Notes under the pieces: model-generated | Told to the model about the DNA's origin: nothing | Seen by the model: only the letters and a program-made list of their open reading frames with translations | The model's database searches: none | Part shown: piece after piece, positions 29,418-49,204 of the stretch | Numbering within the stretch: position 1 is the first letter of the stretch | How the letters are laid out: each line of letters begins with the position of its first letter | Assembly: GCF_011059185.1 (NCBI RefSeq) | Contig: NZ_JAALFE010000010.1 | Coordinates: 62,001-126,000 of the forward strand | DNA from: Paragemmobacter kunshanensis | Lineage (GTDB): Bacteria > Pseudomonadota > Alphaproteobacteria > Rhodobacterales > Rhodobacteraceae | Length of the DNA: 64,000 nt | Direction: 5' to 3' | Translations under genes and position numbers: made by a program

Positions 29418-30533
29418 TCAAACAACCGCCAGCGCCTCCTCGATCCCGGCCCAGAGCGCCTCGACCGGCTCCACCCCGATCGACAGCCGCAGGAACCCGT
29501 CCGGCACGGCATCGCCCCAGCGCGCGCGGCGTTCGCCCGCGCTATGGGTGGACCCGAAACTCGTCGTCCGCGCCATATAGGGGCAGGCCGCAAGGAACCG
29601 CTCGGCCGCTTCGGCACTCTCAAGCACCATACCGATCAGAAAGCCGAATCCCCGCGCCTGCCGCGCCATCACCGCATGCGCGGGATCGCCCGCAAGCCCC
29701 GGATAGCGCAGCCCCCCGACCTTGGGATGCGCGGCCAGCCGTTCTGCAATCACCTGCGCGCTCGCGCACATCCGCGACAGGCGCAGTTCCAGCGTCTCGA
29801 TCCCGCGATGCACCAGCCAGGCCTCGAAGGCCCCCGGCACCGCACCCGACAGTTTCCGCCAATCCCGCACCCGCGCCATCAGCCCCGCATCCTGCCCCGC
29901 GACATGACCGAACAGCACATCCGAATGCCCCCCCGGCGCCTTGGTATCCGCCGCGACCACAAGATCGGCCCCAAGGTCCAGCGGGCGCTGCAGCACCGCC
30001 GTCAGCGTCGTGTTATCCACGATCACCGTCGCCCCGGCCGCCTTGGCGCGCGCTGCGACGGCGGCGATGTCGCAGGCATCCAGACCCGGATTCGAAGGTG
30101 TCTCGACATAGACGATCCCCGCCCCGGTGAAATCGGCCTTGTCCATCTCCACCGTCGGCACATAGTCCAGCGTCACGCCGAAGGGTTTCAGGAACCCTTC
30201 CGCGAAAAGCCGCACGGTGTAGTAACCGTCCGAGGGCAAAACGACCCGCCGCCCCGGCGTGACGGCGGCAAACAAGGCCGCCGAAATCGCCGCCATCCCC
30301 GAGGGAAAGCTGATGCAGGGCGCGCCTTCAAGGACGGCAAGCTGCGCCTCCACCTCTTCCCATGTCGGCATCGACATGCGCCCATAAAGGAACCCGCCCA
30401 GATCGCTGCGCGGCAGGTGATAGGTCGCCGCACTCACCAGCGGCGGCGTCACCGGATCGCCCTGCTCCAGCCGCGCCGCGCGATGGTGCAGCAGGTCGGC
30501 AAAGCGGCGGTCGTCCTCGGGGCGGTTCGTCAT
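29418..30533 (-). CDS. PLP-dependent Cys/Met metabolism lyase (cystathionine lyase family)
   Basis: This 371-residue enzyme is of the cystathionine gamma-synthase/beta-lyase fold. The PLP lysine is in ADTKAPGGHSDVLFG (Lys198), and SFPSGMAAISAAL, YVETPSNPG and VDNTTLT are family motifs. The reaction (beta- or gamma-elimination, or sulfhydrylation) cannot be decided. The ATG has AAAGGAG upstream; more N-terminal codons fall in a repeat. It is the last gene of the minus-strand catabolic block, separated from the dehydrogenase gene by a composite repeat, so it may be independent. Confidence 0.85.
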   Translation of the reverse strand: MTNRPEDDRRFADLLHHRAARLEQGDPVTPPLVSAATYHLPRSDLGGFLYGRMSMPTWEEVEAQLAVLEGAPCISFPSGMAAISAALFAAVTPGRRVVLPSDGYYTVRLFAEGFLKPFGVTLDYVPTVEMDKADFTGAGIVYVETPSNPGLDACDIAAVAARAKAAGATVIVDNTTLTAVLQRPLDLGADLVVAADTKAPGGHSDVLFGHVAGQDAGLMARVRDWRKLSGAVPGAFEAWLVHRGIETLELRLSRMCASAQVIAERLAAHPKVGGLRYPGLAGDPAHAVMARQARGFGFLIGMVLESAEAAERFLAACPYMARTTSFGSTHSAGERRARWGDAVPDGFLRLSIGVEPVEALWAGIEEALAVV

Positions 30534-30612
30534 GGCGCAGATCTCCTTTGCGCCGACCCTTTCCCGGCAGCAGGCGGAATGCAAGGCAGGACGTGGCGCG
30601 GGATGGAGAGAC

Positions 30613-30665
30613 CCGGGGGCGCTTCGCCCCCCGGACCCCCCGAGGATATTTGAGAACAGATGAAG
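30613..30665. repeat. Composite intergenic repeat, copy d
   Basis: A type-B box (GGATATTTGAGAACAGATG within 30644-30665) adjoins a hairpin GGGGGCG-CTTC-GCCCCCC with a following GGACCCCCC run. On the minus strand it lies directly after the stop of the dehydrogenase gene ending at 30670. Confidence 0.75.
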
Positions 30666-30669
30666 TGGC

Positions 30670-31569
30670 CTATTCCAGACGTGCCGGGAACCCCGCCGCC
30701 CGAAGATCCGTTCCCAGCGCATCCTCCAGCAGTTTCACGATCTGCGTCGATTGCGCCGTCCCGCCATAGACCGCCTTGCCCTTCATGAAGGTCTGGTTGG
30801 TCAGCGACGCAAGGTCCAGCGGCACCCCGAATTCCTTCCCGAACCCCATCGCGAAGCCCAGATCCTTCAACGCCAGATCCATGGTGAAGGCGATGTCATA
30901 GCTGCCGTTCAGGATGAGCTGCCCCTCCGTCTCATGCACGAAGGACGTCCCCGAGGATGCCGCGATGGCCTCCCAGGCCGTCTTCAGGTCCAGCCCCCCG
31001 CGCTTGGCCAGCATCAAGGCCTCGCCATCCGCCACCAGATGGATGAAGGCCAGCATGTTGGTGATCACCTTGATGATCGCGGCACTGCCCAAGGGCCCCA
31101 TGTGGAAGATGCGGCTGCCGATCGCCTGCAACGCCGGGCGATGCATCTCGAACAGGTCGGCATCCCCGCCCACCAGCACCGTGATCTCGCCCCGCGCCGC
31201 CAGATGCACGCCGCCTGTCACGGGGGCCTCCAGCAGCCGCACGCCCCCCGTTCGCGCCAGCCCCGCCAGCCGCAGGATATCCTCGCGCCCCAGGGTCGAA
31301 TTCTCGATCCAGGTGGCCTCCGGCTTCATTGTGGTCAGCAACTGCGCCAGCACCGCCTCGGACACGGCAGGCGAGGGCAGGCAGGTGAAGACGTGATCCA
31401 CCTGCGCCGCCACCTCTGCCGGGCTGTCGGCCACCGTGGCCCCCATCGCCCGGTGCCGCTCTGCCAGGGCAGGATCGCGGTCATGGACCACGACCTCATG
31501 CCCCGCCCGGATCAGGCTGGCCGCCAGATGCCCGCCAAGGTTCCCCAGCCCAACATATCCGTATTTCAT
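30670..31569 (-). CDS. NAD(P)-binding beta-hydroxyacid dehydrogenase (HIBADH family)
   Basis: This 299-residue protein has N-terminal GLGNLGG (dinucleotide binding), ENSTLGREDILRL, substrate-binding APVTGGVHLAARG and the catalytic lysine in IIKVITNML. The family oxidises beta-hydroxyacids such as 3-hydroxyisobutyrate, tartronate semialdehyde or related products. Nine bases separate its start from the aldehyde dehydrogenase stop, so it belongs to the catabolic operon. It likely handles a hydroxyacid or semialdehyde produced there, by inference. Confidence 0.88.
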   Translation of the reverse strand: MKYGYVGLGNLGGHLAASLIRAGHEVVVHDRDPALAERHRAMGATVADSPAEVAAQVDHVFTCLPSPAVSEAVLAQLLTTMKPEATWIENSTLGREDILRLAGLARTGGVRLLEAPVTGGVHLAARGEITVLVGGDADLFEMHRPALQAIGSRIFHMGPLGSAAIIKVITNMLAFIHLVADGEALMLAKRGGLDLKTAWEAIAASSGTSFVHETEGQLILNGSYDIAFTMDLALKDLGFAMGFGKEFGVPLDLASLTNQTFMKGKAVYGGTAQSTQIVKLLEDALGTDLRAAGFPARLE

Positions 31570-31578
31570 TCCAGCCCC

Positions 31579-33009
31579 TTACGCCCCATGCCCCACGATG
31601 GCCTTGACCTCGCAGAAGTCATGGATGCCCCAATCGGCATATTCCCGGCCATTGCCCGATTGCTTGTATCCGCCAAAGGGCGCGAAAGTATCCCAGGCCG
31701 GATAGTTCAGGCTCACCTGCCCCGCGCGCAGGCGGCGACCCACGGCCACCGCCTCGGCCGTCGGCCCCTGCACATAGGCGGCAAGGCCATAGACCGTGTC
31801 ATTGGCCATCGCCACGGCCTGATCCACCGTCTCATAGCCGATCACCGACAGGACAGGACCGAAGATTTCCTCCCGCGCGATGGTCATGTCATTGGTCACA
31901 TGACCAAAGATCGTGGGCCGCGCGAACCAGCCCCGGTTCAGCCCGGCAGGCCGCCCCACGCCGCCCGTCACCAGTGTTGCCCCCTCGTCGATCCCTTTCT
32001 GGATCAACCCCTGCACCTTGTCGAACTGCAGCTTGGAAATCAGCGGCCCCATCGTCACCGCGGGATCGTTCGGATCGCCCACGACCACGGCTTCCGCCGC
32101 CTCCTTCGCCACGGCAAGCGCCTCATCCATCCGCGCGGCAGGCACGAACATCCGCGTCGGCGCATCGCAGGACTGCCCCGTATTGCCGAAACATCCCTCG
32201 ACGCCGCCCGCAACCGCCGCGGCCAGATCGGCCCCCGGCAGGATGATATTGGCCGACTTGCCGCCCAGTTCCTGCGCCACCCGCTTCACCGTCGGCGCCG
32301 CCGCCGCCGCCACCGCCGTGCCGGCCCGGGTCGATCCGGTGAAGGACACCATATCCACCTCCGGATGCGCCGACATGCGCGCGCCCACCTCCGGCCCGGT
32401 CCCGTTCACCATGTTGAACACACCCGCCGGCACCCCCGCCGCATGGCAGACCTCGGCGAACAGCACCCCCGACAGGGGCGCGATCTCCGACGGCTTCAGC
32501 ACCATGGTGCAGCCCGCCGCAATGGCGGGCGCCACCTTGCAGGCGATCTGGTTCATCGGCCAGTTCCAGGGCGTGATCAGCGCGCAAACCCCGATCCCTT
32601 CACGGATGATCAGCGTATCGCCCCGCATCTCTTCCCAATGGAATTCCTTCGCCGCCTTGATCGTGCTTTCGATATGCACCTGCCCCGCCCAGGCCTGCGC
32701 CTCGCGCGCCCAGGCCATGGGGGCGCCCATCTCGGTCGACATGGCAACCGCGAATTCCTCATAGCGCTTGTTGTATTCGGCAAGGATCGCCTCCAGCAGC
32801 GCGATCCGATCCTTGGCCTTCCAGGCGGTGAACCCGTCAAAGGCCGCCCGCGCCGCCGCAATGGCCCGATCCGCATCGGCCACCGATCCCAGCGCCACCT
32901 GCGCCACGATCTCCTCGCTCGCCGGATTCTCCACCCCCATGGTGCTGCCTCCCAGCGGCGCCACCCATTCCCCGTTGATGTAGAACTTCGAAAGATTTGC
33001 GTAGGTCAT
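31579..33009 (-). CDS. Aldehyde dehydrogenase family protein
   Basis: This 476-residue NAD(P)+-dependent enzyme has PWNWP, FTGSTRAG, ELGGKSAN and catalytic Cys in NTGQSCDAP (about 281), all intact. EIFGPVLSV and GGYKQSGNGRE are further family motifs. The start MTYANLSKFYINGEW is supported by GGGAA just upstream. It is seven bases from the MttB-like gene. In this context it could oxidise formaldehyde-derived or betaine-aldehyde-type aldehydes; the substrate is not readable. Confidence 0.9.
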   Translation of the reverse strand: MTYANLSKFYINGEWVAPLGGSTMGVENPASEEIVAQVALGSVADADRAIAAARAAFDGFTAWKAKDRIALLEAILAEYNKRYEEFAVAMSTEMGAPMAWAREAQAWAGQVHIESTIKAAKEFHWEEMRGDTLIIREGIGVCALITPWNWPMNQIACKVAPAIAAGCTMVLKPSEIAPLSGVLFAEVCHAAGVPAGVFNMVNGTGPEVGARMSAHPEVDMVSFTGSTRAGTAVAAAAAPTVKRVAQELGGKSANIILPGADLAAAVAGGVEGCFGNTGQSCDAPTRMFVPAARMDEALAVAKEAAEAVVVGDPNDPAVTMGPLISKLQFDKVQGLIQKGIDEGATLVTGGVGRPAGLNRGWFARPTIFGHVTNDMTIAREEIFGPVLSVIGYETVDQAVAMANDTVYGLAAYVQGPTAEAVAVGRRLRAGQVSLNYPAWDTFAPFGGYKQSGNGREYADWGIHDFCEVKAIVGHGA

Positions 33010-33016
33010 TGTTCCC

Positions 33017-34570
33017 TCACCGGAAATAGATGTTGAACCGCGCCCTGATCGCGGCGTCGATCTCGGGCTCCACCCGGCAGCCCGCCTTGGACAGGATCTC
33101 ATTCTTGCGCCGGATCGCGCCATCCAGCAACAGGGGTTTGCCCGCCTCGTTCCATTCCTTCGGGCTCATCCGGTTGCCCACCTTGGGATAGACATATTCC
33201 GTCTGCATCAGGCTCAGCGTCTGGTCCGATCCCAGATAATGCCCCGGCCCGCCCAGACAGACCTCCTTCATTGCCTCGATGGAGGTGCTGTCTTCCGTCA
33301 CATCAATCCCCCGCACAAGCCGCATCGCCTGCCCCAGCAGATCATCGCCCAGCACAAGGCTCTCCAGACAGAACCCCAGCAGCGAGGCATGCATCCCCAC
33401 CGCCTCATAGCACATGTTCAACCCGGCAAGGCCCGCCAGTGCATTGGTGATCCCCTGCTCCCATCCCGCCTGCATGTCCGGCAGCTTGCTGTCCGAAATC
33501 CCCGACGCCGCGCCTCCGGGCAGCCCATAGAACCGGTGCATCTGCGCACAGCCCGCCGTCAGCAGCGCCTGCTCCGCAGACCCCCCGCTCATCGCCCCCG
33601 TCCGCAGGTCCGAAACGAAGGGCCAGGTCCCGAAAATCGCGGGCGCCCCTTTCTTGATCGCATTCACATAGACGACGCCTGCCAGACATTCCGCCACCGC
33701 CTGCACGATGGTCAGCGCGATGGGCGCCGGCGCCGTCGCCCCTGCCTGCCCCGCAGACAGCAGCAGCATGGGCATCCCCCGCCGGATGCAATCCTCCATC
33801 GTGATGCAGGACTCTTCCGCAAACTTCATCGGCGGCACGACAAAACAGTTGGAGTTGGAAACGAAGGGCCGCTCCACCCACTTCTCCTCGCCCCCGGCCA
33901 CCATATAGAGCATGTCGAAGCAATCCGCGACATGGGCAGGATCGCTAAAGCTCGTCCCCACATGCTTCTTCGTGCCCGCAAGACAGGCGTAAAGCGTGTT
34001 CAGGTCCATCTCGCGATTGTCCACCACATCGCGGCAGACCATCGTGCGCTGGTAGAAATGGATGTTGTCGAGGTTATCGACCAGCCGCGCCCCGTCATAC
34101 AGGTCCTGCGCGGTGGACTCGCGATAGTCCAGCGTGATCGGGTCGACGATATGCACCGCCGCCCCCGCCGTGCCGAAATGCACATTCGTCCCGGTCAGAT
34201 GCAGATCATGCTTCGGATCGCGGGCATAAAGCGTGATATCCCGCGCCGCCACCGCCAGCATGTCCTCGACCAGCGCGCGGGGGAACCGCAGCCGCCCGTC
34301 ATCCCCTTGGATGGCCCCGGCGGCGGTCATGATCTCCACCCCCGATTTCGGCGCCTGGCTCAGCCCGATCACCTCCAGCGCCTCCAGCGCCGAGGCATGG
34401 ATCTTCGCCATCCCCGCCTCCGTCAGCGGCTTGTACTGCCCCCCCGGCATCCCCCCGCGCACGGGCCGCACATCATCCGCCAAAGGCGCCGCCCGCAGCG
34501 CCACCCGCGCCGACCGCCCGCCCGACCGCCGCGCCCGTGCCGGTTCGCAAACCTCACCGATATCGCTCAT
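33017..34570 (-). CDS. Non-pyrrolysine MttB-family methyltransferase
   Basis: This 517-residue member of the trimethylamine methyltransferase superfamily (COG5598) contains VHFGTAGAAVHIVDP, MPMLLLSAGQAGATAP and GLPGGAASGISDSK. True MttB uses pyrrolysine at an in-frame amber codon; this frame is uninterrupted with no amber, so it is of the MtgB type, some of which demethylate glycine betaine or other quaternary amines. Those enzymes pass methyl to a corrinoid protein, which is not encoded in the window. It is followed by aldehyde dehydrogenase and preceded by two DMGDH-like genes. Confidence 0.88.
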   Translation of the reverse strand: MSDIGEVCEPARARRSGGRSARVALRAAPLADDVRPVRGGMPGGQYKPLTEAGMAKIHASALEALEVIGLSQAPKSGVEIMTAAGAIQGDDGRLRFPRALVEDMLAVAARDITLYARDPKHDLHLTGTNVHFGTAGAAVHIVDPITLDYRESTAQDLYDGARLVDNLDNIHFYQRTMVCRDVVDNREMDLNTLYACLAGTKKHVGTSFSDPAHVADCFDMLYMVAGGEEKWVERPFVSNSNCFVVPPMKFAEESCITMEDCIRRGMPMLLLSAGQAGATAPAPIALTIVQAVAECLAGVVYVNAIKKGAPAIFGTWPFVSDLRTGAMSGGSAEQALLTAGCAQMHRFYGLPGGAASGISDSKLPDMQAGWEQGITNALAGLAGLNMCYEAVGMHASLLGFCLESLVLGDDLLGQAMRLVRGIDVTEDSTSIEAMKEVCLGGPGHYLGSDQTLSLMQTEYVYPKVGNRMSPKEWNEAGKPLLLDGAIRRKNEILSKAGCRVEPEIDAAIRARFNIYFR

Positions 34571-34580
34571 TCCGCAAGCC

Positions 34581-34680
34581 CTTTCGTCTCGGCCCAAATA
34601 CCCATCTTCCCCGCCTCCACCCCGCGCCACATCCGTGGTCCCGCGCCGGGGGGTCCGGGGGGCCGCATGGCCCCCCGGGT
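34581..34680. repeat. Composite intergenic repeat, copy e
   Basis: A box with GGCCCAAATACCC (34591-34603) and a hairpin GGGGGGCC-GCAT-GGCCCCCC preceded by a CGGGGGGTCC run (about 34647-34678). On the minus strand the hairpin follows the flavoprotein stop and the box supplies sequence just before the MttB-like start, including GAAAGGG. Confidence 0.7.
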
Positions 34681-34684
34681 TCGA

Positions 34685-37129
34685 TCACATCCGCACCCGC
34701 TCCGATTTCGGGTCGTGCATCGGCACCAGCGACGCCACGGCCGCATGCCGCACCCCCGCCACCTCGATCTCGTAACGCGACGCCAGGACCTCCGCCTCGC
34801 TCTCCCCCGTGCAAGGCACATAGCCCATGCCCACCGCCCCGCCGAGGAAATGCCCGTAATTCCCGCTCGTCACCGGCCCCACGATCCGCCCATCCCGCAC
34901 GATCGCCTCATTGTGGAACAGCATGACCGACGGGTCCTCCACCCGGAACTGCACCATCCGACGGCTCAACCCCGCCTCGGCCTTGCGCAGCACCGCATCC
35001 CGGCCCGTGAACCCCGCCTTCTTCTTCGACACGGCAAAGCCAAGCCCTGCCTCCAGCACATGATCCTCATCGGTGATGTCATGGCCCCAATGCCGATAGG
35101 CCTTCTCGATCCGGCAAGAATCCAGCGTATGTATCCCGCACAGCGTCAGCCCAAGCCCCGCCCCCGCCTCTTCCAGCGCCTCGAAGACATGCGCCGTCTG
35201 GTCGGAACTCACATACAGCTCCCAGCCCAGTTCGCCCACGTAAGTTACCCGATGCGCCCGCGCCAGGCCCATGCCCACCTCGATCTCCCGCGCCATCCCG
35301 AACGGATGCGCCGCGTTGGAGAAATCGTCCGGCGACACCGCCGCCATCAGGTCCCGCGCCTTGGGTCCCATGATGCACAAAACCGACTCCGCCGCCGTCA
35401 TGTCGGTAATGACCACGAACTCATCCGCCCGCGCCCGCCTCAGCAACGCCAGATTGCGCTGCAACGTCGCCCCCGGCACCACCAGCAGGAAAGCCGTCTC
35501 TGACAGCCGCGTGACGGTCAGGTCCGCCTCGATCCCGCCGCGCGCGTTCAGGAACATCGTATAGACGATGCGCCCCACCGGAACATCCACCTCCGCCGAA
35601 CAGACCCGGTTCAGGAAGGCGCACGCATCCCGCCCCTCCACCCTGATCTTGCCGAAGGACGTCATGTCAAAGAACCCGACCCCCTCGCGCACGGCCATAT
35701 GCTCGGCCTTCTGGTTCTCAAACCAGTTCTGCCCCTTCCAGTCATAGCGGTATTCCCGCTCCTGCCCCGGACGCGCGAACCAGTTCGCCCGCTCCCAACC
35801 CGCGACCTCGCCGAACACCGCGCCCCGCGCCTTCAGATGCTCATGCAGCGGCGTCCGCCGCACGCCCCGGCTCGTCTCCACCTGCCGGAAGGGGAAGTGG
35901 TCGGCATAAAGCAGCCCCAGCGTCTCGCTCACCCGCTCCTTCAGATAGGCGCGGTTGCGCTGGAAGGGCTGCGCCCGGCGGATATCCACCTCCCACAGAT
36001 CGAAGGGCGGCTCTCCTTCCGTGATCCAGGACGCCAGCGCCATCCCCGCGCCCCCCGATCCCGCGATGCCCACCGAATTATACCCCGCGGCAATCCAATA
36101 CCCCCGCAACTCCGGCGCCTCGCCCAGATAATAGCGGTCATCCGGCGTGAAACTCTCAGGCCCGTTGAAGAACGTATGGATCCCCGATGTCTGGAACAAA
36201 GGCATCCGGTCCATCGCCTTCTCAAGGATGGGCATGAAGTGATCCCAATCCTCGGGCAGCGTGTCGAACATGAAATCCTCGCGGATCCCCCCCATCCCCC
36301 AGGGCTTCGCCTTGGGTTCAAAGGCGCCGATCATCATCTTGCCCGCGTCCGATTTGTAATAGGCGCATTCATCCGGCACCCGCAGCACAGGCAGATGGCC
36401 CAACCCCTCCACGGGTTCGGTGATCAGGTAGAAATGCTCGCAGGCATGCAGCGGCAACGTCACGCCTGATTGCGCCGCAAGGTCGCGCCCCCACATCCCC
36501 CCGCAATTCACCACCACATCGGCGCCAATGAACCCCGGCTCCCCGTCCGAGGACACATAATCCACCCCCGTCACGCGCCCCCCCGCCTGACGCACACCCA
36601 CCACCTTCGTATGCTCGAAAATCTGCGCGCCCCGCATCCGCGCGCCCTTGGCAAGCGCCATGGCGATATTGGCCGGGTCGCATTGCCCGTCCAGCGGCAG
36701 ATGCACCGCCCCCACCACGTCCGAAACGTTCAGATGCGGATACATCTCCTTGACTTGGGCAGGCGAGATTTCCGCCACATCCACCCCGAAGATGCGCGCC
36801 ACGGTGGCCTGCCGCAGCAACTCCTCCCGCCGATGCTCGGTCAGCGCCACCGAGATGCTGCCCACCTGCCGCATCCCCGTCGCCACCCCCGTCTCCGCCT
36901 CCAGCTTGACGTAAAGGTCCGCCGAATACTTCGCCAGCCGCGTCATGTTCGCCGACCCGCGCAACTGCCCGATCAGCCCCGCCGCATGCCATGTCGTGCC
37001 AGATGTCAACTGCTTCCGCTCCAGCAGCACCACATCCGTCCACCCGGCCTTGGCCAGATGATAGGCCACCGAACAGCCCGACACGCCCCCGCCGATCACC
37101 ACCGCCCGCGCCCGCACCGGAATTCCCAT
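34685..37129 (-). CDS. DMGDH/sarcosine dehydrogenase-like flavoprotein with GcvT domain (1)
   Basis: This 814-residue protein has an N-terminal FAD domain (VIGGGVSGCS, 12-20) with TTWHAAG (His48). That histidine carries covalent FAD in dimethylglycine and sarcosine dehydrogenases. The C-terminal half is a GcvT/aminomethyltransferase-like folate domain (YVGELGWELYV and LDSCRIEKAYRHWGHDI). The family oxidatively demethylates N-methyl glycines, passing the one-carbon unit to tetrahydrofolate. A paralogue of identical length follows upstream in the operon. The ATG lies behind AAGGGCAGGG, part of a composite repeat. Confidence 0.9.
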   Translation of the reverse strand: MGIPVRARAVVIGGGVSGCSVAYHLAKAGWTDVVLLERKQLTSGTTWHAAGLIGQLRGSANMTRLAKYSADLYVKLEAETGVATGMRQVGSISVALTEHRREELLRQATVARIFGVDVAEISPAQVKEMYPHLNVSDVVGAVHLPLDGQCDPANIAMALAKGARMRGAQIFEHTKVVGVRQAGGRVTGVDYVSSDGEPGFIGADVVVNCGGMWGRDLAAQSGVTLPLHACEHFYLITEPVEGLGHLPVLRVPDECAYYKSDAGKMMIGAFEPKAKPWGMGGIREDFMFDTLPEDWDHFMPILEKAMDRMPLFQTSGIHTFFNGPESFTPDDRYYLGEAPELRGYWIAAGYNSVGIAGSGGAGMALASWITEGEPPFDLWEVDIRRAQPFQRNRAYLKERVSETLGLLYADHFPFRQVETSRGVRRTPLHEHLKARGAVFGEVAGWERANWFARPGQEREYRYDWKGQNWFENQKAEHMAVREGVGFFDMTSFGKIRVEGRDACAFLNRVCSAEVDVPVGRIVYTMFLNARGGIEADLTVTRLSETAFLLVVPGATLQRNLALLRRARADEFVVITDMTAAESVLCIMGPKARDLMAAVSPDDFSNAAHPFGMAREIEVGMGLARAHRVTYVGELGWELYVSSDQTAHVFEALEEAGAGLGLTLCGIHTLDSCRIEKAYRHWGHDITDEDHVLEAGLGFAVSKKKAGFTGRDAVLRKAEAGLSRRMVQFRVEDPSVMLFHNEAIVRDGRIVGPVTSGNYGHFLGGAVGMGYVPCTGESEAEVLASRYEIEVAGVRHAAVASLVPMHDPKSERVRM

Positions 37130-37138
37130 CGCCCTGCC

Positions 37139-37196
37139 CTTCATCTGTTCTAAAATATCCTGCGGGGGGTCCGGGGGGCGCAAAGTCCCCCGGTCC
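37139..37196. repeat. Composite intergenic repeat, copy f
   Basis: A type-B box (CATCTGTTCTAAAATATCC within 37139-37160) is followed by a GGGGGGTCC run and a GGGGG...CCCCC hairpin (to about 37195). On the minus strand the box runs into the ribosome binding site of the flavoprotein gene starting at 37129. Confidence 0.75.
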
Positions 37197-37205
37197 CGCA
37201 GCCGA

Positions 37206-39742: not shown

Positions 39743-39765
39743 TAGGCAGCCCCCCTCACGCACCC

Positions 39766-41346: not shown

Positions 41347-41431
41347 TTTCCATCCTCGCCCATCACTCGCCCATCCTTTCCATAGCCGCATGGCGCTGGA
41401 AAACAAGGGATTTCCGCAGTCTTCACCATTT

Positions 41432-41449
41432 TGATTGACAGTTCAATCA
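41432..41449. promoter_or_regulatory. 18-bp palindromic operator for the BetI-like regulator
   Basis: TGATTGA-CAGT-TCAATCA is a perfect 7+4+7 inverted repeat, overlapping a consensus TTGACA hexamer (41435-41440). It lies 30 bases before the Rieske ATG and 85 bases before the regulator ATG. The ATTGA-N4-TCAAT core resembles sites of BetI-type repressors. Confidence 0.65.
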
Positions 41450-41478
41450 GATTCCAGCGACCATCTGCAAAGCTGTAA

Positions 41479-42621
41479 ATGAGATTCCCGATGCCCGCCC
41501 CCCAAGGCCCGCTGCTCGATCACTGCCCCCCCGGCTTGCCCCCGGACGCCTATCGCGGCGCCGACTGGTTCGTCCGCGAAATGGCGGGGCCCTGGTCGCG
41601 CCACTGGGTCGCCGCGGGCCGCCTCTCCGATCTGCCGCCGGGCCGGATGCGGCGCATCATGGTGGGCGCGCATCCCGTCCTGCTCTGCCATGATGTTGGG
41701 GGGAAACTCTCCGCCTTCCACAACATCTGCCGCCATCGCGGGGCCGAGCTTTGCGCAGCCGGGGAACAGCCGCTGGGCAAGCGCATCTCCTGCCCCTATC
41801 ACGCCTGGGCCTACAGCGCCGCCGATGGCCGCCTCATCGCCACCGGCCATGCCCGCCCCACGGCGGATTTCGATGCCGCGTCCCATGGTCTGCGCCCGGT
41901 CGCGATCAAGGTCTGGAACGGCTTCATCTTCCTGTCCTGCGCCGAAGATCCCGCCCCCCTCAGGGCGGATGTTCCCCTGTCGATTTTCGACAATTGGCCC
42001 ATGGATCAATTGGTTACAGGTCATCGTTGGGAAAACGAGATTGCCTGCAACTGGAAGGTTTTCTGGGAAAACTACTCCGAATGCCTGCATTGCCCCGGCA
42101 TCCATCCCGAACTCTGCGATCTGGTCCCGGTCTATGGCAAGGGCGTCATGGCCCATGACGAGCGCCCCGACTGGACGCCCGACCAGCCCCCCGCGCCCCC
42201 CCTGCGCAGCGGCGCGCAAAGCTGGACTCTGACAGGCCTGCCCGCCGCCGCCCCCTTCCCCGGTCTGACCGCCGCCGAACGCGCGGCGGGGCATACCTTC
42301 CTCACGCTCTGGCCCTCTCTCTTCGTCGTGGCCCATGTCGATTACGTCCGCTCCGTCCGCGTGGAACCGCTTTCCCCCACCCGGATGCGCCTGGTTGCGG
42401 AATGGCATTTCGCCCCCGAAACCCTTGCCGACAGCGCCTTCGATCCCGCCCAGGTCGCGGCTTTCGCGAAACTTGTTCTCACACAGGACGCCGCCGCCTG
42501 CGAGATGAACCAGCGCGGCCTTTCGGCACCCGCCGCCATGACCGCCCGCCTGATGCCCGAGGAATACGAGCTTCACCGCTTCCACCAATGGGTGCTTTCC
42601 GAGATGGAGATCCCGACATGA
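41479..42621 (+). CDS. Rieske-type oxygenase, GbcA/CntA-like
   Basis: This 380-residue oxygenase alpha subunit has the Rieske motif C84-X-H86 and C105-X2-H108. The mononuclear iron site is ENYSECLHCPGIH (His204, His209), with Glu197 where most ring-hydroxylating oxygenases have Asp. A bridging Glu is known in carnitine oxygenase CntA and quaternary-amine relatives. It therefore probably oxidises a quaternary ammonium compound (N-demethylation or C-N cleavage). Reductase and ferredoxin genes are absent here. It overlaps the second Rieske gene by four bases. Start uncertain (41479 or 41491). Confidence 0.88.
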   Translation: MRFPMPAPQGPLLDHCPPGLPPDAYRGADWFVREMAGPWSRHWVAAGRLSDLPPGRMRRIMVGAHPVLLCHDVGGKLSAFHNICRHRGAELCAAGEQPLGKRISCPYHAWAYSAADGRLIATGHARPTADFDAASHGLRPVAIKVWNGFIFLSCAEDPAPLRADVPLSIFDNWPMDQLVTGHRWENEIACNWKVFWENYSECLHCPGIHPELCDLVPVYGKGVMAHDERPDWTPDQPPAPPLRSGAQSWTLTGLPAAAPFPGLTAAERAAGHTFLTLWPSLFVVAHVDYVRSVRVEPLSPTRMRLVAEWHFAPETLADSAFDPAQVAAFAKLVLTQDAAACEMNQRGLSAPAAMTARLMPEEYELHRFHQWVLSEMEIPT

Positions 42622-43826
42622 CCACGCATCCCCTGCGCTCTCAGCCCGTTCCCAACAGTTGGGACAGGCGCGGCCTTCCGGGCTGGACCTATCATTCCCC
42701 GGCGCTGTTCGATCTTGAACGCGACCATGTCTTCCTGAACCACTGGCAGGTGGTCGGCCATGTGAACGACCTGCCCGAAAAGGGCGACTGGATCACCTAT
42801 GACATGCTCGGCGAACGCGCCGTCGTGATGCGTGGCGCCGATGGCGAGGTGCGCGCCTTCCACAACCTCTGCCGCCACCGCGGCGCGCGTGTGGTGGATG
42901 GCGACCGGGGCCAGTGCCGCGGCTCCATCGTCTGCCCCTTCCACGGCTGGGTCTACAACCTTGACGGCACCCTGCGCGGCGCGTCGCAGCCCACCAGCTT
43001 CGACAGCATGGATCGCGCGAAGTTCGGCCTGAAACCCATTGAAATGCAAACATTCCACGGGTTCATATTCCTGCGTTTCCACCCCGGCCCGCAGGCCGAT
43101 ATCGCCGATCTCCTCGCCCCCTTCGATGCCGATTTCGCCGCCTACCGCACGGCTGACATCCTGCCCGTCGCCACGCCTTACTGGTCAACCGAACTGCCGG
43201 TGAACTGGAAATCCGTCCGCGATGTCGACAATGAAGGCTATCATGTCCCCCTCGCCCATCCGGGCCTGCAGGATCTTTATGGCCGCGACTATCGCGACAT
43301 CTTCCTGTCCGACGGGCTGAACATCTCCATCGGCCGCTACGGCGATACGCCCGGGCGGCTCTGGTCCGTGCGCCACTACAACCGCCTGTCCCGCGCGCGC
43401 GATCACCTGCCGCCGCATCTGGCCGGGGCCTGGACCTATTATGGCCTATTCCCCCAGATCGTCTTCGCCTTCACCCCGGAAGGCGTTCAATACTATCACG
43501 AAATCCCGCTTGGCCCCGGCCTTACCCGGCTGACCGGCCGCCTCTATCGCAACCCCGATGAATCCCGGCAGGAACGGCTTGCCCGCTACCTTGCCATGCG
43601 GATCGACCGCGACACCTCGGCCGAGGATCAGCAGCTTTCGATCTGGTCGAACGAATCCATGAAATCCTCGGCCTTCGACAATTTCCACCTCTCCGATCTG
43701 GAATGGGGCCTGCGCCGCCACCATGACGACCTGCGCGCCCTTCTGCCCGTGATGAAACTCGACACCCCCCCGCCCGAGGATCGCATGGCCGCGGTCAATC
43801 AGGAAATGCTTGGCGCGACAGGCTGA
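42618..43826 (+). CDS. Second Rieske-type oxygenase alpha subunit
   Basis: This 402-residue protein has C85-X-H87 and C106-X2-H109 of the Rieske cluster and DNEGYHVPLAH (His209, His214, with Asp204) as the iron site. It thus has the usual Asp bridge, unlike its neighbour. It begins at an ATGA overlap with the first Rieske gene, so both are made together. They may act in sequence on the same substrate or form a mixed enzyme; neither can be decided. An ABC importer gene set follows after 62 bases. Confidence 0.88.
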   Translation: MTTHPLRSQPVPNSWDRRGLPGWTYHSPALFDLERDHVFLNHWQVVGHVNDLPEKGDWITYDMLGERAVVMRGADGEVRAFHNLCRHRGARVVDGDRGQCRGSIVCPFHGWVYNLDGTLRGASQPTSFDSMDRAKFGLKPIEMQTFHGFIFLRFHPGPQADIADLLAPFDADFAAYRTADILPVATPYWSTELPVNWKSVRDVDNEGYHVPLAHPGLQDLYGRDYRDIFLSDGLNISIGRYGDTPGRLWSVRHYNRLSRARDHLPPHLAGAWTYYGLFPQIVFAFTPEGVQYYHEIPLGPGLTRLTGRLYRNPDESRQERLARYLAMRIDRDTSAEDQQLSIWSNESMKSSAFDNFHLSDLEWGLRRHHDDLRALLPVMKLDTPPPEDRMAAVNQEMLGATG

Positions 43827-43888
43827 TCGCGCTTAGCCTTGCAGGATCAAGACCGGAACACCGGCACGCAGACAACAGGGAGACCGCC

Positions 43889-44992
43889 ATGAAACTGACC
43901 CGTCGCAACGCCCTTCTGACGCTTGGCAGCACCTTGGCTGTCCCCTATGTCCGCCCCTCCTGGGCGCAGGCCGGCACCGTGAATGTCTACAACTGGTCCG
44001 ACTATATCGGCGAAACCACCATCGCGGATTTCGAAGCCGAAACCGGCATCGGCGTGGTCTACGACCTTTACGCCAGCGCCGAAGAGATGCAGGCCAAGAT
44101 GCTGGCAGGCTCCACAGGCTATGATGTCGTCGTCATGGCGGGCCTGTCGCTGCCGCAATTCGTGACGGCGGGCGTCTATCAGAAACTGGATCGCAGCCGC
44201 CTTTCGGGCTGGTCCAACCTTGATCCTGCCATCCTGAAGATCGTCGAAGGCTTCGATCCGGGCAACGAATACGGCGTTCCCTACATGTGGGGATCGGTCG
44301 GCATCACCTATAACCTCGACATGGTGCGCGAACGCCTGCCCGACGCCAACCTTGCCTCTCTCGACACGCTGTTCAAACCGGAAAACGCCGCCAAACTGGC
44401 CGATTGCGGGATCTCCATCCTCGACAGCCCCACCGATATCGGCTTCATGGTCCTCAGCTATCTGGGCATTGATCCCAACACCGCAGGCCCCGCCGAATAT
44501 GCCAGGATGGCCGAGGCTTTCGCCCCCATCCGCGACTATATCGCCACCTTCGACAACGCCAATTACCTGACCGCCATCCCCAATGGCGAACTCTGCGCCA
44601 TCAACAACTGGTCGGGCGATTACGGCGTGGCAAAGGCGCGCGCCGCCGAAGCCGGGATCGAGATGGACCTTGCCTATTTCGTGCCCGAAACCGGCGCCCC
44701 GGCATGGTTCGATCTGCTCTGCCTGCCCTCGGACGCCCCCAATACCGACAATGCCTATGCCTTTGTCGATTACCTTCTGCGCCCCGAGGTGATCGCCGCC
44801 TGCACCAACTACACGGGCTATGCCAATGCCAACAAGGCGGCAACGCCGCTGGTCGACCCCTCCATCGCAGGCGATCCCGCCGTCTATCCCGATGAGGCGA
44901 CGCTGGCGCGCATGTATACCCCCGCGGCCCAGACCGAAGAACAGGACCGCGAGATCACCCGCATCTGGGCCACCATCAAGTCCGGCGGCTGA
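43889..44992 (+). CDS. PotD-like periplasmic binding protein of an ABC importer
   Basis: This 367-residue protein has a Tat-type signal (LTRRNALLTLGSTLAV, cleavage after WAQA). The mature start VNVYNWSDYIGETTI is the hallmark of spermidine/putrescine-binding proteins. IPNGELCAINNWSGDY is another family segment. It probably binds a cationic amine in the periplasm. The gene leads potA/B/C-like genes in one operon with the Rieske oxygenases, suggesting the same compound is imported and attacked. CAGGGAG precedes the ATG. Confidence 0.9.
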   Translation: MKLTRRNALLTLGSTLAVPYVRPSWAQAGTVNVYNWSDYIGETTIADFEAETGIGVVYDLYASAEEMQAKMLAGSTGYDVVVMAGLSLPQFVTAGVYQKLDRSRLSGWSNLDPAILKIVEGFDPGNEYGVPYMWGSVGITYNLDMVRERLPDANLASLDTLFKPENAAKLADCGISILDSPTDIGFMVLSYLGIDPNTAGPAEYARMAEAFAPIRDYIATFDNANYLTAIPNGELCAINNWSGDYGVAKARAAEAGIEMDLAYFVPETGAPAWFDLLCLPSDAPNTDNAYAFVDYLLRPEVIAACTNYTGYANANKAATPLVDPSIAGDPAVYPDEATLARMYTPAAQTEEQDREITRIWATIKSGG

Positions 44993-44994
44993 TC

Positions 44995-46092
44995 ATGACC
45001 GGGGCCAGCGCGCCGTTCCTCAGGATCGAGGGCGTTTCAAAGACCTTCGGCACCTTTCAGGCGGTGCGCGACGTGTCGCTGACCATCACCAAGGGCGAAA
45101 TCTTCGCCCTTCTCGGCGGCTCTGGCTGCGGAAAGACCACCCTCCTTCGGATGCTGGCCGGGTTCGAGGAACCCAGCGCGGGCCGCATCTTCCTCGATGG
45201 GCAGGACATGACGGGCGTCCCCCCCTGGGAACGCCCCGTCCACATGATGTTTCAAAGCTATGCGCTCTTTCCCCATATGACGGTGGAAAAGAACGTGGGC
45301 TACGGGCTGAAGCACGAACGCATGTCCGCCCCCGAACGGGCCGACCGCGTGCGCGCCATGCTGGATCTGGTGCAACTCACCCCCTTCGCCCAACGCAAGC
45401 CGCATCAGATCTCGGGTGGCCAGCGCCAGCGCGTGGCCCTTGCCCGCGCCCTTGCCCGCCAGCCAAAGCTTCTGCTTCTGGACGAACCTCTCGCCGCGCT
45501 GGACAAGAAACTGCGCGAACATACCCAGTTCGAACTGATGTCGATCCAGGAACGGACGGGCGTCACCTTCATTGTCGTGACCCATGACCAGGAAGAGGCG
45601 ATGACCCTGGCTGATCGCATCGCCGTCATGGATCGTGGCCAGGTGCAGCAGGTCGGCCCCCCCGGCGAGGTTTACGAACATCCCGCCTCGCGTTTTGTGG
45701 CGAACTTCCTCGGCTCCATCACCCAGTTCGAGGCGACGGTGACCGCCGTCAACGGCACCCGCGCGCGCCTCTCCGTTCCCGCCTTCGCGGCCGAGGTCGA
45801 AACCGGCACCCTGCCCGGCCTTGCCGTGGGGGAAAAGCTGACCCTCGGCCTGCGCCCGGAAAAGGTGGCGCTTCAGCGCGACCCTCCCGATGCGGCGAAT
45901 GTCCTGTCGGGCGAGGTGAAGGATCTGGCCTATTTCGGCAAGGACAGCCTCTATCGCGTCATCCTGCCGGGCGGTGGCCTGATGTCGGTGCATGCCGTGA
46001 ACGCCCGGCGCGGCGGCGATGCCCGCCCCGACTGGCATGATCGCGTCTGGCTCAGCTTCGAGCCCGCCGCCGCCATCCTGCTGCGGGAGTGA
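44995..46092 (+). CDS. PotA-like ABC importer ATPase
   Basis: This 365-residue ATPase has Walker A GGSGCGKT, signature ISGGQRQRVALARAL and Walker B LLLLDEPLAALD. A C-terminal TOBE domain (LTLGLRPEKV) is typical of polyamine/opine importer ATPases. It energises the permeases encoded next. It starts two bases after the binding-protein stop and ends four bases before the first permease start. Confidence 0.92.
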   Translation: MTGASAPFLRIEGVSKTFGTFQAVRDVSLTITKGEIFALLGGSGCGKTTLLRMLAGFEEPSAGRIFLDGQDMTGVPPWERPVHMMFQSYALFPHMTVEKNVGYGLKHERMSAPERADRVRAMLDLVQLTPFAQRKPHQISGGQRQRVALARALARQPKLLLLDEPLAALDKKLREHTQFELMSIQERTGVTFIVVTHDQEEAMTLADRIAVMDRGQVQQVGPPGEVYEHPASRFVANFLGSITQFEATVTAVNGTRARLSVPAFAAEVETGTLPGLAVGEKLTLGLRPEKVALQRDPPDAANVLSGEVKDLAYFGKDSLYRVILPGGGLMSVHAVNARRGGDARPDWHDRVWLSFEPAAAILLRE

Positions 46093-46096
46093 CGCG

Positions 46097-47016
46097 ATGC
46101 AAACCCGCCTGTCGCGCTGGTTCAACGGCAAGGGATGGTCAGACCTGATCATCGGGCTGCCCTATCTCTGGCTCGTGCTGTTCTTCCTGTTGCCCTTCGT
46201 GATCGTCCTTGCCATGAGCGTGGCCACCCGCACTCCGACGGCCCCGCCCTTCGGCTATGGCGGCGAGAATCCGCTTGTGAATTTCAATGGTTACGCCCGT
46301 CTCTTCACGGACGATCTTTACATCCGCTCCTTCCTCACCTCACTGGGCAATGCCGCCGTCGCAACGATCCTCTGCCTGCTGATCGGCTATCCGATGGCGC
46401 TTGGCCTGACCCGCGTCTCGAAGGGCTGGCGCAACATCCTTCTGATGCTGGTGATCCTGCCCTTCTGGACCTCGTTCCTTCTGCGCGTCTATGCCTGGAT
46501 GGGGATGATGGGCAAGAACAGCTGGTTCAACCAGATGCTCACCAGCGCCTGGAACTGGATCACGCCAGAAGGCTGGGCCGCACCTCTCTGCCGCTGATGC
46601 ATTCGAACTTCGCCGTCGTGCTGGTCATGGTCTATACCTACCTGCCCTTCATGATCCTGCCGCTCTATGCCAGCCTCGAACGGCTTGACCCGACGCTGGA
46701 TGAGGCGGCGATGGACCTTGGCACCCGCCCCTTCGGCGTCTTCCGCGACGTGACGCTGCCGCAATCCATCCCCGGCATCGTGGCGGGCGGGCTTCTGGTC
46801 TTCATCCCCGCTGCCGGGGAACTGGTGATCCCCTCGCTTGTCGGCGATGCGGCAAGCCCGATGATCGGGCGCGTCATCTCGGACGAATTCACCTCGGCGC
46901 GGGATTGGCCCATGGCCTCCTCCGTCGCGGTGGCGCTGCTGCTGATCATGGTCATCCCCACCATGCTCTACAGCCGCTATCAGGCCAAGGCCGACGGGGC
47001 AGAGGCAAAGCCATGA
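46097..47016 (+). pseudogene. PotB/PotH-like permease split by a frameshift
   Basis: Two reading frames together make one complete permease. Codons 46097-46597 give 166 residues (MQTRLSRWFN to GWAAPLCR), covering the first membrane segments up to MLVILPFWTSFLLRVYAWMGMMGKNSWFN. The other frame carries on at LPLMHSNFAVVLVMVYTYLPFMILPLY, with EAAMDLGTRPFGVFRDV (EAA loop) and ends at 47016. One base inserted, or two removed, near 46580-46590 (CCTCTCTG) would restore the frame. A TGATG at 46595-46599 could restart translation at MHSNF (139 residues). Sequencing error, a true mutation, or a coupled split permease are all possible. All other genes of the importer are intact. Confidence 0.85.
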
Positions 47017-47852
47017 ACCGTCGCCCCTGGTTTCTCTTCACCGTCCTCTGCTTCGGCTTCGCCTTCTTCTACGTGCCGATCCTGTCGATGATCGTCTATT
47101 CCTTCAACGAAAGCCGCCTTGCCACCGTCTGGGGCGGCTTCTCGACGAAATGGTATGTCTCGCTTCTGTCCAACCGCCAGGTCGGGGCGGCGCTGGTCCT
47201 GTCGCTCAAGATCGCCGTCATCTCTGCCTCTATCGCCACGATCCTCGGCACGCTTGCCGGCATCGCACTGGCGCGCTTCACCCGCTTCCGGGGCCGCCTG
47301 CTCTTCTCGGGCCTCGTCACCGCCCCGCTTGTCATGCCCGAGGTGATCACCGGCATCTCCTCGCTCATGCTCTTCATCCTGATGGCCGACTGGATCGGCT
47401 GGCCCGGCCAGCGCGGATTTACCACCATAACGCTGGCGCATATCACCTTTTCCATGGTCTTCGTCACCACCATCGTCCAGGCCCGGATGATCCAGTCCGA
47501 CCGCGCGATCGAAGAGGCCGCGATGGACCTCGGCTCGCGCCCCTGGCAGGTGATGTGGGACATCACCCTTCCCACGATCTTCCCCGCCATCCTTTCGGGC
47601 TGGCTTCTGGCCTTCACCATCTCGCTCGATGATGTGGTGATCACCTCCTTCACCACCGGCCCCGGCAACACCACCCTGCCGCTGCTGATCTGGTCCAAGG
47701 TCAAGCTGGGCGTCACCCCCGATATCAACGCGCTGGCCACGCTCACCGTGCTGGCCGTCGGCACCGGCGTCGTGATTGCGGGCATCATCCTCAACCGCGC
47801 CGAACGCCGCCGCGTTCTGGACGAACGCATGGCCTACCGTTCCAATGACTGA
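47013..47852 (+). CDS. PotC-like ABC importer permease
   Basis: This 279-residue permease with six membrane segments has the polyamine-type motif MIVYSFNESRL near the N-terminus and the EAA loop EEAAMDLGSRPWQVMWDITLP. ISLDDVVITSFTTGPGNTTLP is typical of PotC. It begins at an ATGA overlap with the second permease half, and its last bases overlap the next gene by 8. It should pair with the split PotB-like protein. Confidence 0.92.
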   Translation: MNRRPWFLFTVLCFGFAFFYVPILSMIVYSFNESRLATVWGGFSTKWYVSLLSNRQVGAALVLSLKIAVISASIATILGTLAGIALARFTRFRGRLLFSGLVTAPLVMPEVITGISSLMLFILMADWIGWPGQRGFTTITLAHITFSMVFVTTIVQARMIQSDRAIEEAAMDLGSRPWQVMWDITLPTIFPAILSGWLLAFTISLDDVVITSFTTGPGNTTLPLLIWSKVKLGVTPDINALATLTVLAVGTGVVIAGIILNRAERRRVLDERMAYRSND

Positions 47853-48714
47853 CCGCCCCGAAACCCTGCTCGACCTTCCCCTCGGCACGCCCGGGGCCGG
47901 GCGGATCCGCTATGGTGCCGCCATGGCCCTGTATCAGCAGGGCAAGCTTTCCCCCGCGGAACTGGAGGCATGGCGCATCGCCGCCGCCTCCGACAGCCGC
48001 CCCGCCGATGAGGTGCTGGCCGCCCATGGCCTGCCCGCCCCACCCCGACAAAGCCCGGACGCCGCCGCCACCCTCTCTCGCCTGATGGAGGAGGCGGGCG
48101 CCTATCTCGCCCCGCTGCATTGCCCCGGCGCGGCCGAACTGCGCCGCGTGCTGGCCCGCCGCAGCCCCGCTGCCCTGCAGCCAGCCGCGCAGGGCCTGCC
48201 CGTCGTCACGGCCCATCTCGCCGCCGCCCTTGCCGCGCTGGCGGCCACGCACCCGGCCCTGTCAGCCGCCATTGCCGCTTCCGCCCCGCATCTTGGCTGG
48301 CGCGTCTATGACAGATACCCCCCCGAAGAGATCGGCATCGCCTTTGCCACGGGCCATGCCTTCTGCCCGCTGCTCGGCCCCGATGCCCCCTTCGCCGAGG
48401 AGACGGCCGAATTCGGCCTCTTCCTCATCGCGCCCCATGTGCTTTACCGCGATCACTGCCATGCCGCGCCCGAACTCTACCTGCCGCTGACCGGCCCGCA
48501 TGGCTGGCGCTTCGGCCCCGACCGGCCCCTGATCGTGAAGCCTGCGCATCGCCCGGTCTGGAACGATCCGCACCGCCCCCATCTCACCAAGGTCGGCCCG
48601 ACCCCCTTCCTCGGCTTCTACGGCTGGACGGGCGACATCGACGAACCGGCCCGCGTCCTGCCCGCCACCGACTGGCCGCAGCTCGAAGCCCTGCGCCTGA
48701 TGGCCGAACCATGA
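47845..48714 (+). CDS. DMSP-lyase-like cupin protein
   Basis: This 289-residue protein has a C-terminal cupin with FGLFLIAPHVLYRDHCHAAPELYLPL. The H-x-H-x4-E-x-Y pattern is that of metal ligands in the dimethylsulfoniopropionate lyase family (DddQ/DddW/DddL-like), and GWRFG follows as in those enzymes. The N-terminal half is helical and Ala-rich without a clear signal. Whether it cleaves DMSP is not shown; the family also includes relatives of unknown activity. It is translationally overlapped with the importer gene, so it may act on the imported compound. Confidence 0.7.
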   Translation: MTDRPETLLDLPLGTPGAGRIRYGAAMALYQQGKLSPAELEAWRIAAASDSRPADEVLAAHGLPAPPRQSPDAAATLSRLMEEAGAYLAPLHCPGAAELRRVLARRSPAALQPAAQGLPVVTAHLAAALAALAATHPALSAAIAASAPHLGWRVYDRYPPEEIGIAFATGHAFCPLLGPDAPFAEETAEFGLFLIAPHVLYRDHCHAAPELYLPLTGPHGWRFGPDRPLIVKPAHRPVWNDPHRPHLTKVGPTPFLGFYGWTGDIDEPARVLPATDWPQLEALRLMAEP

Positions 48715-48844
48715 TCCGCCCCGTCCCCCGATGCCCCCCCGCCCTGCGTCTACGGACGAGCATTCCTGGCCGTCCCGATACCCCCTTCAAGGGCCGCGCC
48801 GTCCATCGCGCGACCCGCTTCTTCTGACAGAAAGGCCCGATCCC

Positions 48845-49204
48845 ATGTCCTTCACCAAAGACGAACGCCGCATCGCCAACATCAAGGAGGCCGCCTTCAC
48901 CCCCTTCGTCTATCCCGATGGCGTGGCCCTCGGGGACGAGATCCTGCAACTCGACAGTGACAAGCCGCTCGGCGAAGGTTTCCACGTCTATCGCATGCCC
49001 GCCGGGATGCGCACCCGCACGCATATCCACAACGGCCATGAACAGTTCCTCATCCTCGAAGGCGAACTGATCGAAGATGACGGCACCGTCTTCCGGCCCG
49101 GTGATCTGGTCTTCTACCGCGACGGCACCGAACACAATTCCTACACCCCGAACGGATGCCTCCTTGCCGTCCATATCGTCGGCCCCGAAACGCCGACCGA
49201 ATGA
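48845..49204 (+). CDS. Small cupin-domain protein
   Basis: This 119-residue single-domain cupin has THIHNGHEQFLILEG (metal-binding H-x-H and E) and the second motif PGDLVFYRDGTEHNSY. It lies 130 bases after the DMSP-lyase-like gene, probably in the same transcript. No enzymatic role can be assigned. It is the last recognisable gene of the catabolic island. Confidence 0.8.
   Translation: MSFTKDERRIANIKEAAFTPFVYPDGVALGDEILQLDSDKPLGEGFHVYRMPAGMRTRTHIHNGHEQFLILEGELIEDDGTVFRPGDLVFYRDGTEHNSYTPNGCLLAVHIVGPETPTE

Follow-up and report, generated by a model that had tools for sequence, protein, structure and literature searches.

Do the genes that lie side by side at positions 29418-49204 of a 64,000-nucleotide stretch of the Paragemmobacter kunshanensis genome (contig NZ_JAALFE010000010.1, positions 62,001 to 126,000; the whole stretch is called the window below) belong to one pathway for methylated or otherwise cationic amines? 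A preliminary description of this region had grouped them into a single linked catabolic island. We examined the window within its 4.46-Mb, 117-contig genome and alongside the corresponding loci of related bacteria, and we are confident that these 20 kb comprise two operons with separate histories and separate regulators. Module A (29418-40617) has a LysR regulator gene and, diverging from it, the gene order DMG2-DMG1-MttB-ALDH-HIBADH with CGL at its edge, where DMG1 and DMG2 denote flavoproteins resembling dimethylglycine dehydrogenase (DMGDH), ALDH an aldehyde dehydrogenase and CGL cystathionine gamma-lyase. Module B (40690-49204) has a TetR regulator gene and, facing away from it, genes for Rieske-1, Rieske-2, a PotFGHI-type importer, a cupin resembling the dimethylsulfoniopropionate (DMSP) lyase DddQ and a small cupin. 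The features are as follows, in window positions.

29418..30533, minus strand: CGL, edge of module A; 502.5 bits against the NF005758 cut-off of 440; adjoins A in the closest relatives
30670..31569, minus strand: HIBADH-like beta-hydroxyacid dehydrogenase, module A; by family search
31579..33009, minus strand: ALDH, BADH-like, module A; under the equivalog cut-off
33017..34570, minus strand: MttB-family methyltransferase of the kind without pyrrolysine (Pyl), module A; closest solved structures 2qne and 9yce; Ile in place of Pyl
34685..37129, minus strand: DMGDH-like flavoprotein 1 (DMG1), module A; DAO-FAO_M-GCV_T-GCV_T_C
37206..39650, minus strand: DMGDH-like flavoprotein 2 (DMG2), module A; DAO-FAO_M-GCV_T-GCV_T_C; nearest solved relative mitochondrial DMGDH
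39766..40617, plus strand: divergent LysR regulator, module A; by family search and synteny
40690..41346, minus strand: BetI-like TetR regulator, module B; TetR_C_6
41431..41451, no strand: palindrome TTGATTGACAGTTCAATCAGA in the TetR-Rieske gap, module B; conserved, putative TetR operator
41479..42621, plus strand: Rieske oxygenase 1, module B; nearest solved relatives 3vca and 4qup (demethylase)
42618..43826, plus strand: Rieske oxygenase 2, core gene of module B; nearest solved relative the carnitine monooxygenase CntA
43889..44992, plus strand: PotF-type (PotD) relative of polyamine-binding proteins, module B; acidic pocket conserved
44995..46092, plus strand: PotG/PotA-type ATPase, module B; by family search
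46097..47016, plus strand: PotH/PotB-type permease, module B; by tblastn against relatives, frame broken near 46580
47013..47852, plus strand: PotI/PotC-type permease, module B; by family search
47845..48714, plus strand: DMSP_lyase-family cupin, module B; PF16867, models as DddQ
48845..49204, plus strand: small cupin (Cupin_7), module B; in 14 of 52 full-flank B loci

Linkage between the two modules was assessed on module B loci from a scan of named genomes (521 loci, of which the best 80 were kept), with counts made on the 52 that have at least 7.5 kb upstream and at least 7 kb downstream (full-flank loci) and with identity thresholds of at least 60% for MttB, DMG1, DMG2, ALDH and HIBADH and at least 45% for LysR. 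Near these 52 copies of module B, MttB was found once and ALDH twice, and DMG1, DMG2, HIBADH and LysR were not found at all. The genes of module B itself stay together, the cupin being retained at 51 loci, PotD, PotA and PotC at 50 each, TetR at 46 and Rieske-1 at 42, with accessory genes for an aminotransferase at 29 and for a folate-binding GCV_T aminomethyltransferase (AMT) at 28. Under the thresholds, a 45-47% relative of DMG1 lies upstream of module B's TetR gene in L117, L128, L149, L152 and L168 (L numbers are our locus labels), and a 45% MttB is present in L163. The HIBADH-like gene belongs to module A only.

Module A has a site of its own in relatives, which reads radA-cvpA-purF-SDR...LysR-hutC-hutF (the names radA, cvpA, purF, hutC and hutF were assigned by reading the sequence). 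Of the 12 genomes with module B that were tested, five (L239/L240, L241, L242, L243 and L246) have it flanked by radA-cvpA-purF and hutC-hutF, and the hutC side is also seen in L244 and in three further module A loci. An A-type MttB is encoded in all 12 of these genomes, with 85-97% identity in 10; it adjoins module B's TetR gene in one (L160/L255, Roseovarius azorensis), and in the other 11 no module B block was found in the stretches fetched around MttB. Here, hutF is at contig position 138616-139941 and hutC begins ~35 kb past LysR, and the segment of ~35 kb that separates them (window position 40618 to contig position ~137,900) has no counterpart at that site in relatives. The segment contains module B, sulfur-oxidation-type genes (window ~51.3-63 kb, by reading), and an ABC permease/amidase/deaminase block and a flavin monooxygenase gene that match, by eye, genes flanking module B in L112 and L115. 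The neighbourhood of module B would thus have been inserted between LysR and hutC, a direction suggested by the arrangement in relatives, and this insertion accounts for the adjacency of A and B here. The unlinked neighbourhoods of the relatives contradict the single linked island of the preliminary description, which had itself named this outcome as refuting it, and on the separate sites, the linkage counts and the insertion together we rejected one single pathway.

Several observations weigh against so complete a separation. An A-type MttB (69-71%) adjoins module B's TetR gene in L160 (R. azorensis) and L161 (a metagenome-assembled genome), and an ALDH 67-68% like that of module A stands beside it in L171 and L191 (also L025). 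By hand count, A-type MttB occurs in 16 of the 18 genomes with Rieske-2 versus 167 of the 274 without it (Fisher one-sided p 0.012, kinship uncorrected), so that A and B may cooperate functionally although their linkage is not conserved. The two could then form one functional island, in which a quaternary amine taken up by module B's importer loses its methyl groups in sequence to the Rieske oxygenases of B and to the MttB and flavoproteins of A. To these neighbours and this co-occurrence may be added the adjacency in the window itself, the A-type MttB of all 12 genomes tested, and the closest module B clusters (L112-L115), which lack the AT3-PYR1-PYR2-AMT genes yet have module A elsewhere in the genome (in L114, seen only up to the contig end). 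Nevertheless, we regard cooperation of this kind as rather improbable: A and B lie apart in most relatives read, their regulators differ, the palindrome of module B is missing from module A, and the adjacency follows from the ~35-kb insertion.

Because each half of the region is a syntenic block in many genomes, the grouping of genes within it is not due to chance. Family searches recovered at 29418-49204 all of the families that the preliminary description had listed (potB by tblastn against relatives). These are families that act on methylated or cationic amines, and its amine theme is probably right; its view that no pathway could be named also holds, NCBIfam giving no over-cut-off name for the oxygenases, flavoproteins, MttB or cupin. 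It had left out the leftmost gene, for CGL (29418-30533), and the second, small cupin at 48845-49204, and it had assigned a CntA-like bridging glutamate to one Rieske protein; that glutamate is present, but in both proteins. The two Rieske genes share 4 bases, and between PotD and the DddQ-like cupin neighbouring genes either overlap or lie at most 4 bases apart, intergenic distances which suggest operons. A single-base difference from relatives L112 and L115 breaks the potB/potH frame near 46580, either a real loss or an assembly error. A gene for 149 amino acids lies 3' of the small cupin gene (window 49674-50123), and by eye it has a counterpart after module B in L112 and L115.

A palindrome marks the regulatory region of module B. 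TTGATTGACAGTTCAATCAGA is the only match in the window at up to 3 mismatches, and none appeared in 100 shuffles. Among the 60 module B loci that have TetR and a forward gene, the form TGAYTGR-N4-YCARTCA is exact in the TetR gap of 49 and present with at most one mismatch in all 60, compared with one exact match and four at up to one mismatch in the remaining 1.14 Mb outside TetR gaps. Exact copies also occur in L021, L025 and L193, and none was found in L022-L024, L026-L029, L194, L195, L278, L292, L293 or L295; since the distant module B variants (L022, L023, L026-L029, L194, L195 and L293) and the closer L024 are without it, the operator appears to belong to the near group. We infer that the palindrome is the TetR operator, and it resembles the TGATTG-type BetI operator. 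An exact copy is missing from all 36 stretches fetched around an A-type MttB (0.67 Mb in total, the rest of A being absent from some), and on this ground we rejected module A as a target of B's regulator.

What might module A do? Its MttB passes PF06253 (358.6 bits for a threshold of 25) and stays under the equivalog cut-off of the trimethylamine enzyme TIGR02369 (331.5 of 525). Where the MttB of methanogens has Pyl, the codon is not a stop but encodes Ile, which excludes the use of pyrrolysine, and of the nearest solved relatives, 2qne and 9yce, the latter is a glycine betaine methyltransferase. The genome encodes nine MttB homologues, the window copy being among the three weakest to PF06253; of four paralogues compared with it, three are 24-27% and one is 42% identical. 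The TWHAAG stretch, whose His we take to be flavin-linked, is retained in both flavoproteins. A single B12-binding_2 (PF02607) protein of the split-MetH/MtgC type (245 amino acids; contig C30, 227153-227890, L279:5153-5890) is encoded in the genome, where no second PF02607 match, such as a full MetH, was found. Its gene adjoins a DUF1638-like gene (by reading) and, like that of the one RamA-like protein in the genome, is unlinked to module A. This set matches the description of the aerobic MtgBCD route for glycine betaine, which works in Ruegeria pomeroyi and in which SPO2162 is a DUF1638 protein (PMC12478193).

These features are consistent with a cobalamin/folate-linked demethylation operon under LysR control. 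A cobalamin-dependent MttB-family enzyme, probably served by the unlinked MtgC-like corrinoid protein, and the two DMGDH-like dehydrogenases would pass methyl groups to folate, and ALDH and the hydroxyacid dehydrogenase would oxidize the remainder. This gene content can fairly be read as stripping off up to three N-methyl groups, and the successive demethylation proposed in the preliminary description is plausible for module A, given two DMGDH-like proteins and MttB; we lean toward a demethylation role. Within the order, DMG2-like proteins were found in 274 of 292 genomes and A-type MttB in 183 of 292, both at E<=1e-100, a threshold that also admits some paralogues. MttB is accompanied by DMG2 at 60% or more in 16 of 20 fetched loci, a biased rate, the loci having been picked by hand mostly where the two looked close. 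Variants L096, L100, L103, L105 and L107 carry homocysteine-methyltransferase-like, quinone-reductase-like and phosphoenolpyruvate-mutase-like inserts, not all three in each, named from the sequence without family search.

Two named pathways compete for this assignment. If MttB acted as MtgB and the flavoproteins demethylated dimethylglycine and sarcosine, module A would be the aerobic glycine betaine pathway, for which the kinship of MttB to 9yce and of flavoprotein 2 to DMGDH, the MtgC-like and RamA-like proteins and the working route in R. pomeroyi all speak. Sinorhizobium carries an A-type MttB at 75% on pSymB, next to LysR and DMG2. Its MtgBCDE genes are presumably chromosomal, judging by the SMc tag. 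They are located with the cobalamin biosynthesis operon according to the same source (PMC12478193), and this separate placement argues against glycine betaine. So do the rank of the window MttB among nine homologues and the presence of ALDH and HIBADH, which betaine does not require; we hold this assignment to be possible but unlikely. Module A or B might instead be the homarine operon homABCDER. That name would call for six genes, one of them a regulator, and this agrees with the core of module A. A weak objection is that hom, which occurs in SAR11, would then be expected in small genomes, and the smallest genome with an A-type MttB is 1.3 Mb at 64% completeness (28 of 289 in the class search, which names no taxa). 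A homarine pathway conserved among environmental bacteria has been published, and N-methylglutamate dehydrogenase is reported to act in homarine catabolism (both from PMC13390433). The N-methyl group thus seems to be retained until that enzyme, which fits a demethylation operon badly and makes the homarine assignment quite doubtful.

Module B varies in its gene content. Among 292 genomes of the order, 11 have Rieske-1 (E<=1e-40) and 18 have Rieske-2 (E<=1e-100); in the class, Rieske-2 occurs in 10 of 385 (E<=1e-110), four of them sized 1.7-2.4 Mb. Hosts among the best 80 of the 521 loci include Rhodobacter, Tabrizicola, Cypionkella, Gemmobacter and Defluviimonas, a Fuscovulum plasmid has the set without the small cupin, and Rhizobium and Shinella plasmids have a rearranged subset. 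An aminotransferase, two CrtI/amine-oxidase-type flavoproteins and an AMT are optional after TetR, as are an amidohydrolase and a methyltransferase after the DddQ-like cupin; Rieske-1 and the small cupin also vary, and the four closest clusters (L112-L115, Rieske-2 86-88% identical) lack Rieske-1 and the AMT set. For the AMT of L193, the top NCBIfam match, under the cut-off, is the C-terminal part of trimethylamine N-oxide demethylase. The PYR1-type flavoprotein has no close copy elsewhere in this genome (best match 30%). Such proteins may be PYROXD2-like, but this kinship did not show here, the best solved relative being a phytoene dehydrogenase. The association of PYROXD2 with methyllysine (PMC9730628) led no further. 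L293, from a low-GC alphaproteobacterium of 2.4 Mb, has Rieske-2 and the Pot importer near an agmatinase gene and two class-III aminotransferase genes (all over cut-off) and two glutamine-synthetase-like genes.

The importer bears on the substrate. Conservation was read from stop-free matches covering at least 75% of the query, which came from 73 of the 80 loci for PotD, 61 for Rieske-1, 78 for Rieske-2 and 59 for the cupin, plus the window. The binding protein is nearest to solved polyamine- and putrescine-binding proteins and keeps, at positions mapped by hand on the PotF contacts, Asp38 (73/74), Asp183 (74/74; Glu in PotF), Trp241 (74/74), Asp244 (73/74), Trp273 (74/74) and Asp275 (73/74), a third Trp also being kept in 74/74. 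A pocket this acidic would be better suited to a di- or polyamine than to a zwitterionic betaine. Both oxygenases keep the bridging glutamate (E201 of Rieske-1, 62/62; E206 of Rieske-2, 79/79) together with the Rieske Cys/His set and the two iron-binding His residues (61-62 of 62 and 79/79). The solved structures 3vca and 4qup, nearest to Rieske-1, we take to be the stachydrine demethylase Stc2.

The cupin passes PF16867 (72.2 bits for a threshold of 27), and the eight structures that best match its predicted model (pLDDT 89.9) are DMSP lyases, most of them DddQ (Foldseek E 5.8e-14; ~20% identity, 19-24% over the best six). The active site of DddQ comprises Tyr120, His123, His125, Glu129, Tyr131 and His163 (PMC4437653). 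Five counterparts are conserved in the aligned cupins as H204 (59/60), H206 (60/60), E210 (59/60), Y212 (59/60) and H246 (56/60), and the sixth, Y201, in at least 90% of 23. Module B could on this basis be a sulfonium operon, with a true DMSP lyase and an importer for DMSP, and the TetR protein has a faint match to the acrylate regulator AcuR (29.5 of 247 bits). However, the importer is PotF-type with a diamine-type pocket and the cupin sequence is remote from solved DMSP lyases (best E 1.6e-5), and we consider a DMSP operon highly unlikely.

For module B we favour instead the uptake and oxidation of a cationic amine. The PotFGHI-type importer, with its polyamine-type acidic contacts, would bring in a compound that is most likely di- or polyamine-like and often N-methylated: the AMT found in about half of the clusters, with its demethylase match, points to N-methyl groups, and the agmatinase and aminotransferase context of L293 points to polyamines. 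Rieske oxygenases of the CntA/Stc2 kind would then hydroxylate the carbon next to nitrogen and so split the C-N bond (demethylation or dealkylation), the DddQ-fold metal cupin would probably perform an elimination on a carboxylated fragment, and the BetI-type TetR would control the operon. Carried further, this reading could make module B an aerobic pathway, not reported before, that acts on N-methylated polyamines or on dications related to them. A pair of Rieske oxygenases would take the place of the usual amine oxidases, and the cupin would be the aza-counterpart of a DMSP lyase: it would eliminate an amine from R2N-CH2-CH2-COO-, an oxidized aminopropyl arm that is the nitrogen equivalent of DMSP, leaving acrylate together with a smaller amine. 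This full scheme is speculative, and we think it improbable as a whole.

A number of findings count against the favoured reading of module B. The PotF contacts Ser38, Ser85 and Tyr87 are lost (A41/S32/G1; A38/S33/3 others; and mostly Leu, with L39 plus I, Q, M and others), and equivalog scores of 345.1 of 636 for PotF, 438.5 of 613 for PotG and 320.4 of 476 for PotI exclude identity with true PotF. GbcA (NF058607) scores of 143.4 and 131.0, far under the cut-off of 670, likewise exclude true GbcA, and no cognate oxygenase reductase gene was found in module B or among the scanned window genes. In ten of the 52 full-flank loci, Rieske-2, the importer and both cupins occur without Rieske-1, aminotransferase or AMT, so that not every variant requires an N-methylated substrate. 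The glutamine-synthetase-like genes of L293 and L028 are under the gamma-glutamylputrescine synthetase cut-off. The regulator misses the equivalog cut-off of BetI (105.6 bits versus 201.3 for TIGR03384), which rules out a true BetI, and, being BetI-like, it would suit choline or another small quaternary amine just as well as a polyamine. Setting these against the pocket, the AMT and the context of L293, we are evenly divided on whether the substrate class of module B is polyamine-like, and consider the whole account, separate A and B operons with the roles given above, reasonably likely.

Module B is present in many Rhodobacterales genomes, on rhizobial plasmids and in small-genome alphaproteobacteria, so that its substrate is probably an amine common in the environment. 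Neither its oxygenases nor its cupin is named by any family model, and no published account of it was found in a literature search on Rieske enzymes with trimethyllysine or methylated polyamines. The conserved palindrome offers a direct handle on the regulon, the binding protein is suited to ligand screening, and L293 is a small model for the module. A polyamine-linked cupin of the DMSP lyase type, if true, would widen the range of that enzyme family.

Both modules resemble known systems in their parts and depart from them in how those parts are combined. The flavoproteins of module A share the DAO-FAO_M-GCV_T-GCV_T_C order and TWHAAG with DMGDH and DMGO, but form a diverged pair within a single operon that also holds MttB. 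That MttB, like MtgB of MtgBCD, belongs to PF06253, is without pyrrolysine and has corrinoid and activase genes in the genome; however, it forms a separate subfamily and is linked to two DMGDH-like genes, ALDH and HIBADH rather than to mtgC or mtgD. In module B, the TetR shares TetR_C_6 with the choline-responsive repressor BetI, but falls short of its cut-off and has no betAB beside it in the window. The importer shares gene order, families and an acidic ligand pocket with the putrescine importer PotFGHI, although it scores under the equivalog cut-offs, has lost three contacts and sits inside an oxygenase operon. The Rieske pair has the 2Cys-2His center, the mononuclear iron His pair and the bridging Glu of CntA, Stc2 and GbcA, yet comprises two different oxygenases per operon, without a reductase gene and linked to a polyamine-type importer. 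With DddQ, DddL, DddW and DddK the cupin shares a predicted fold, metal ligands and two Tyr, whereas it is ~20% identical to them and is placed in an amine-type operon.

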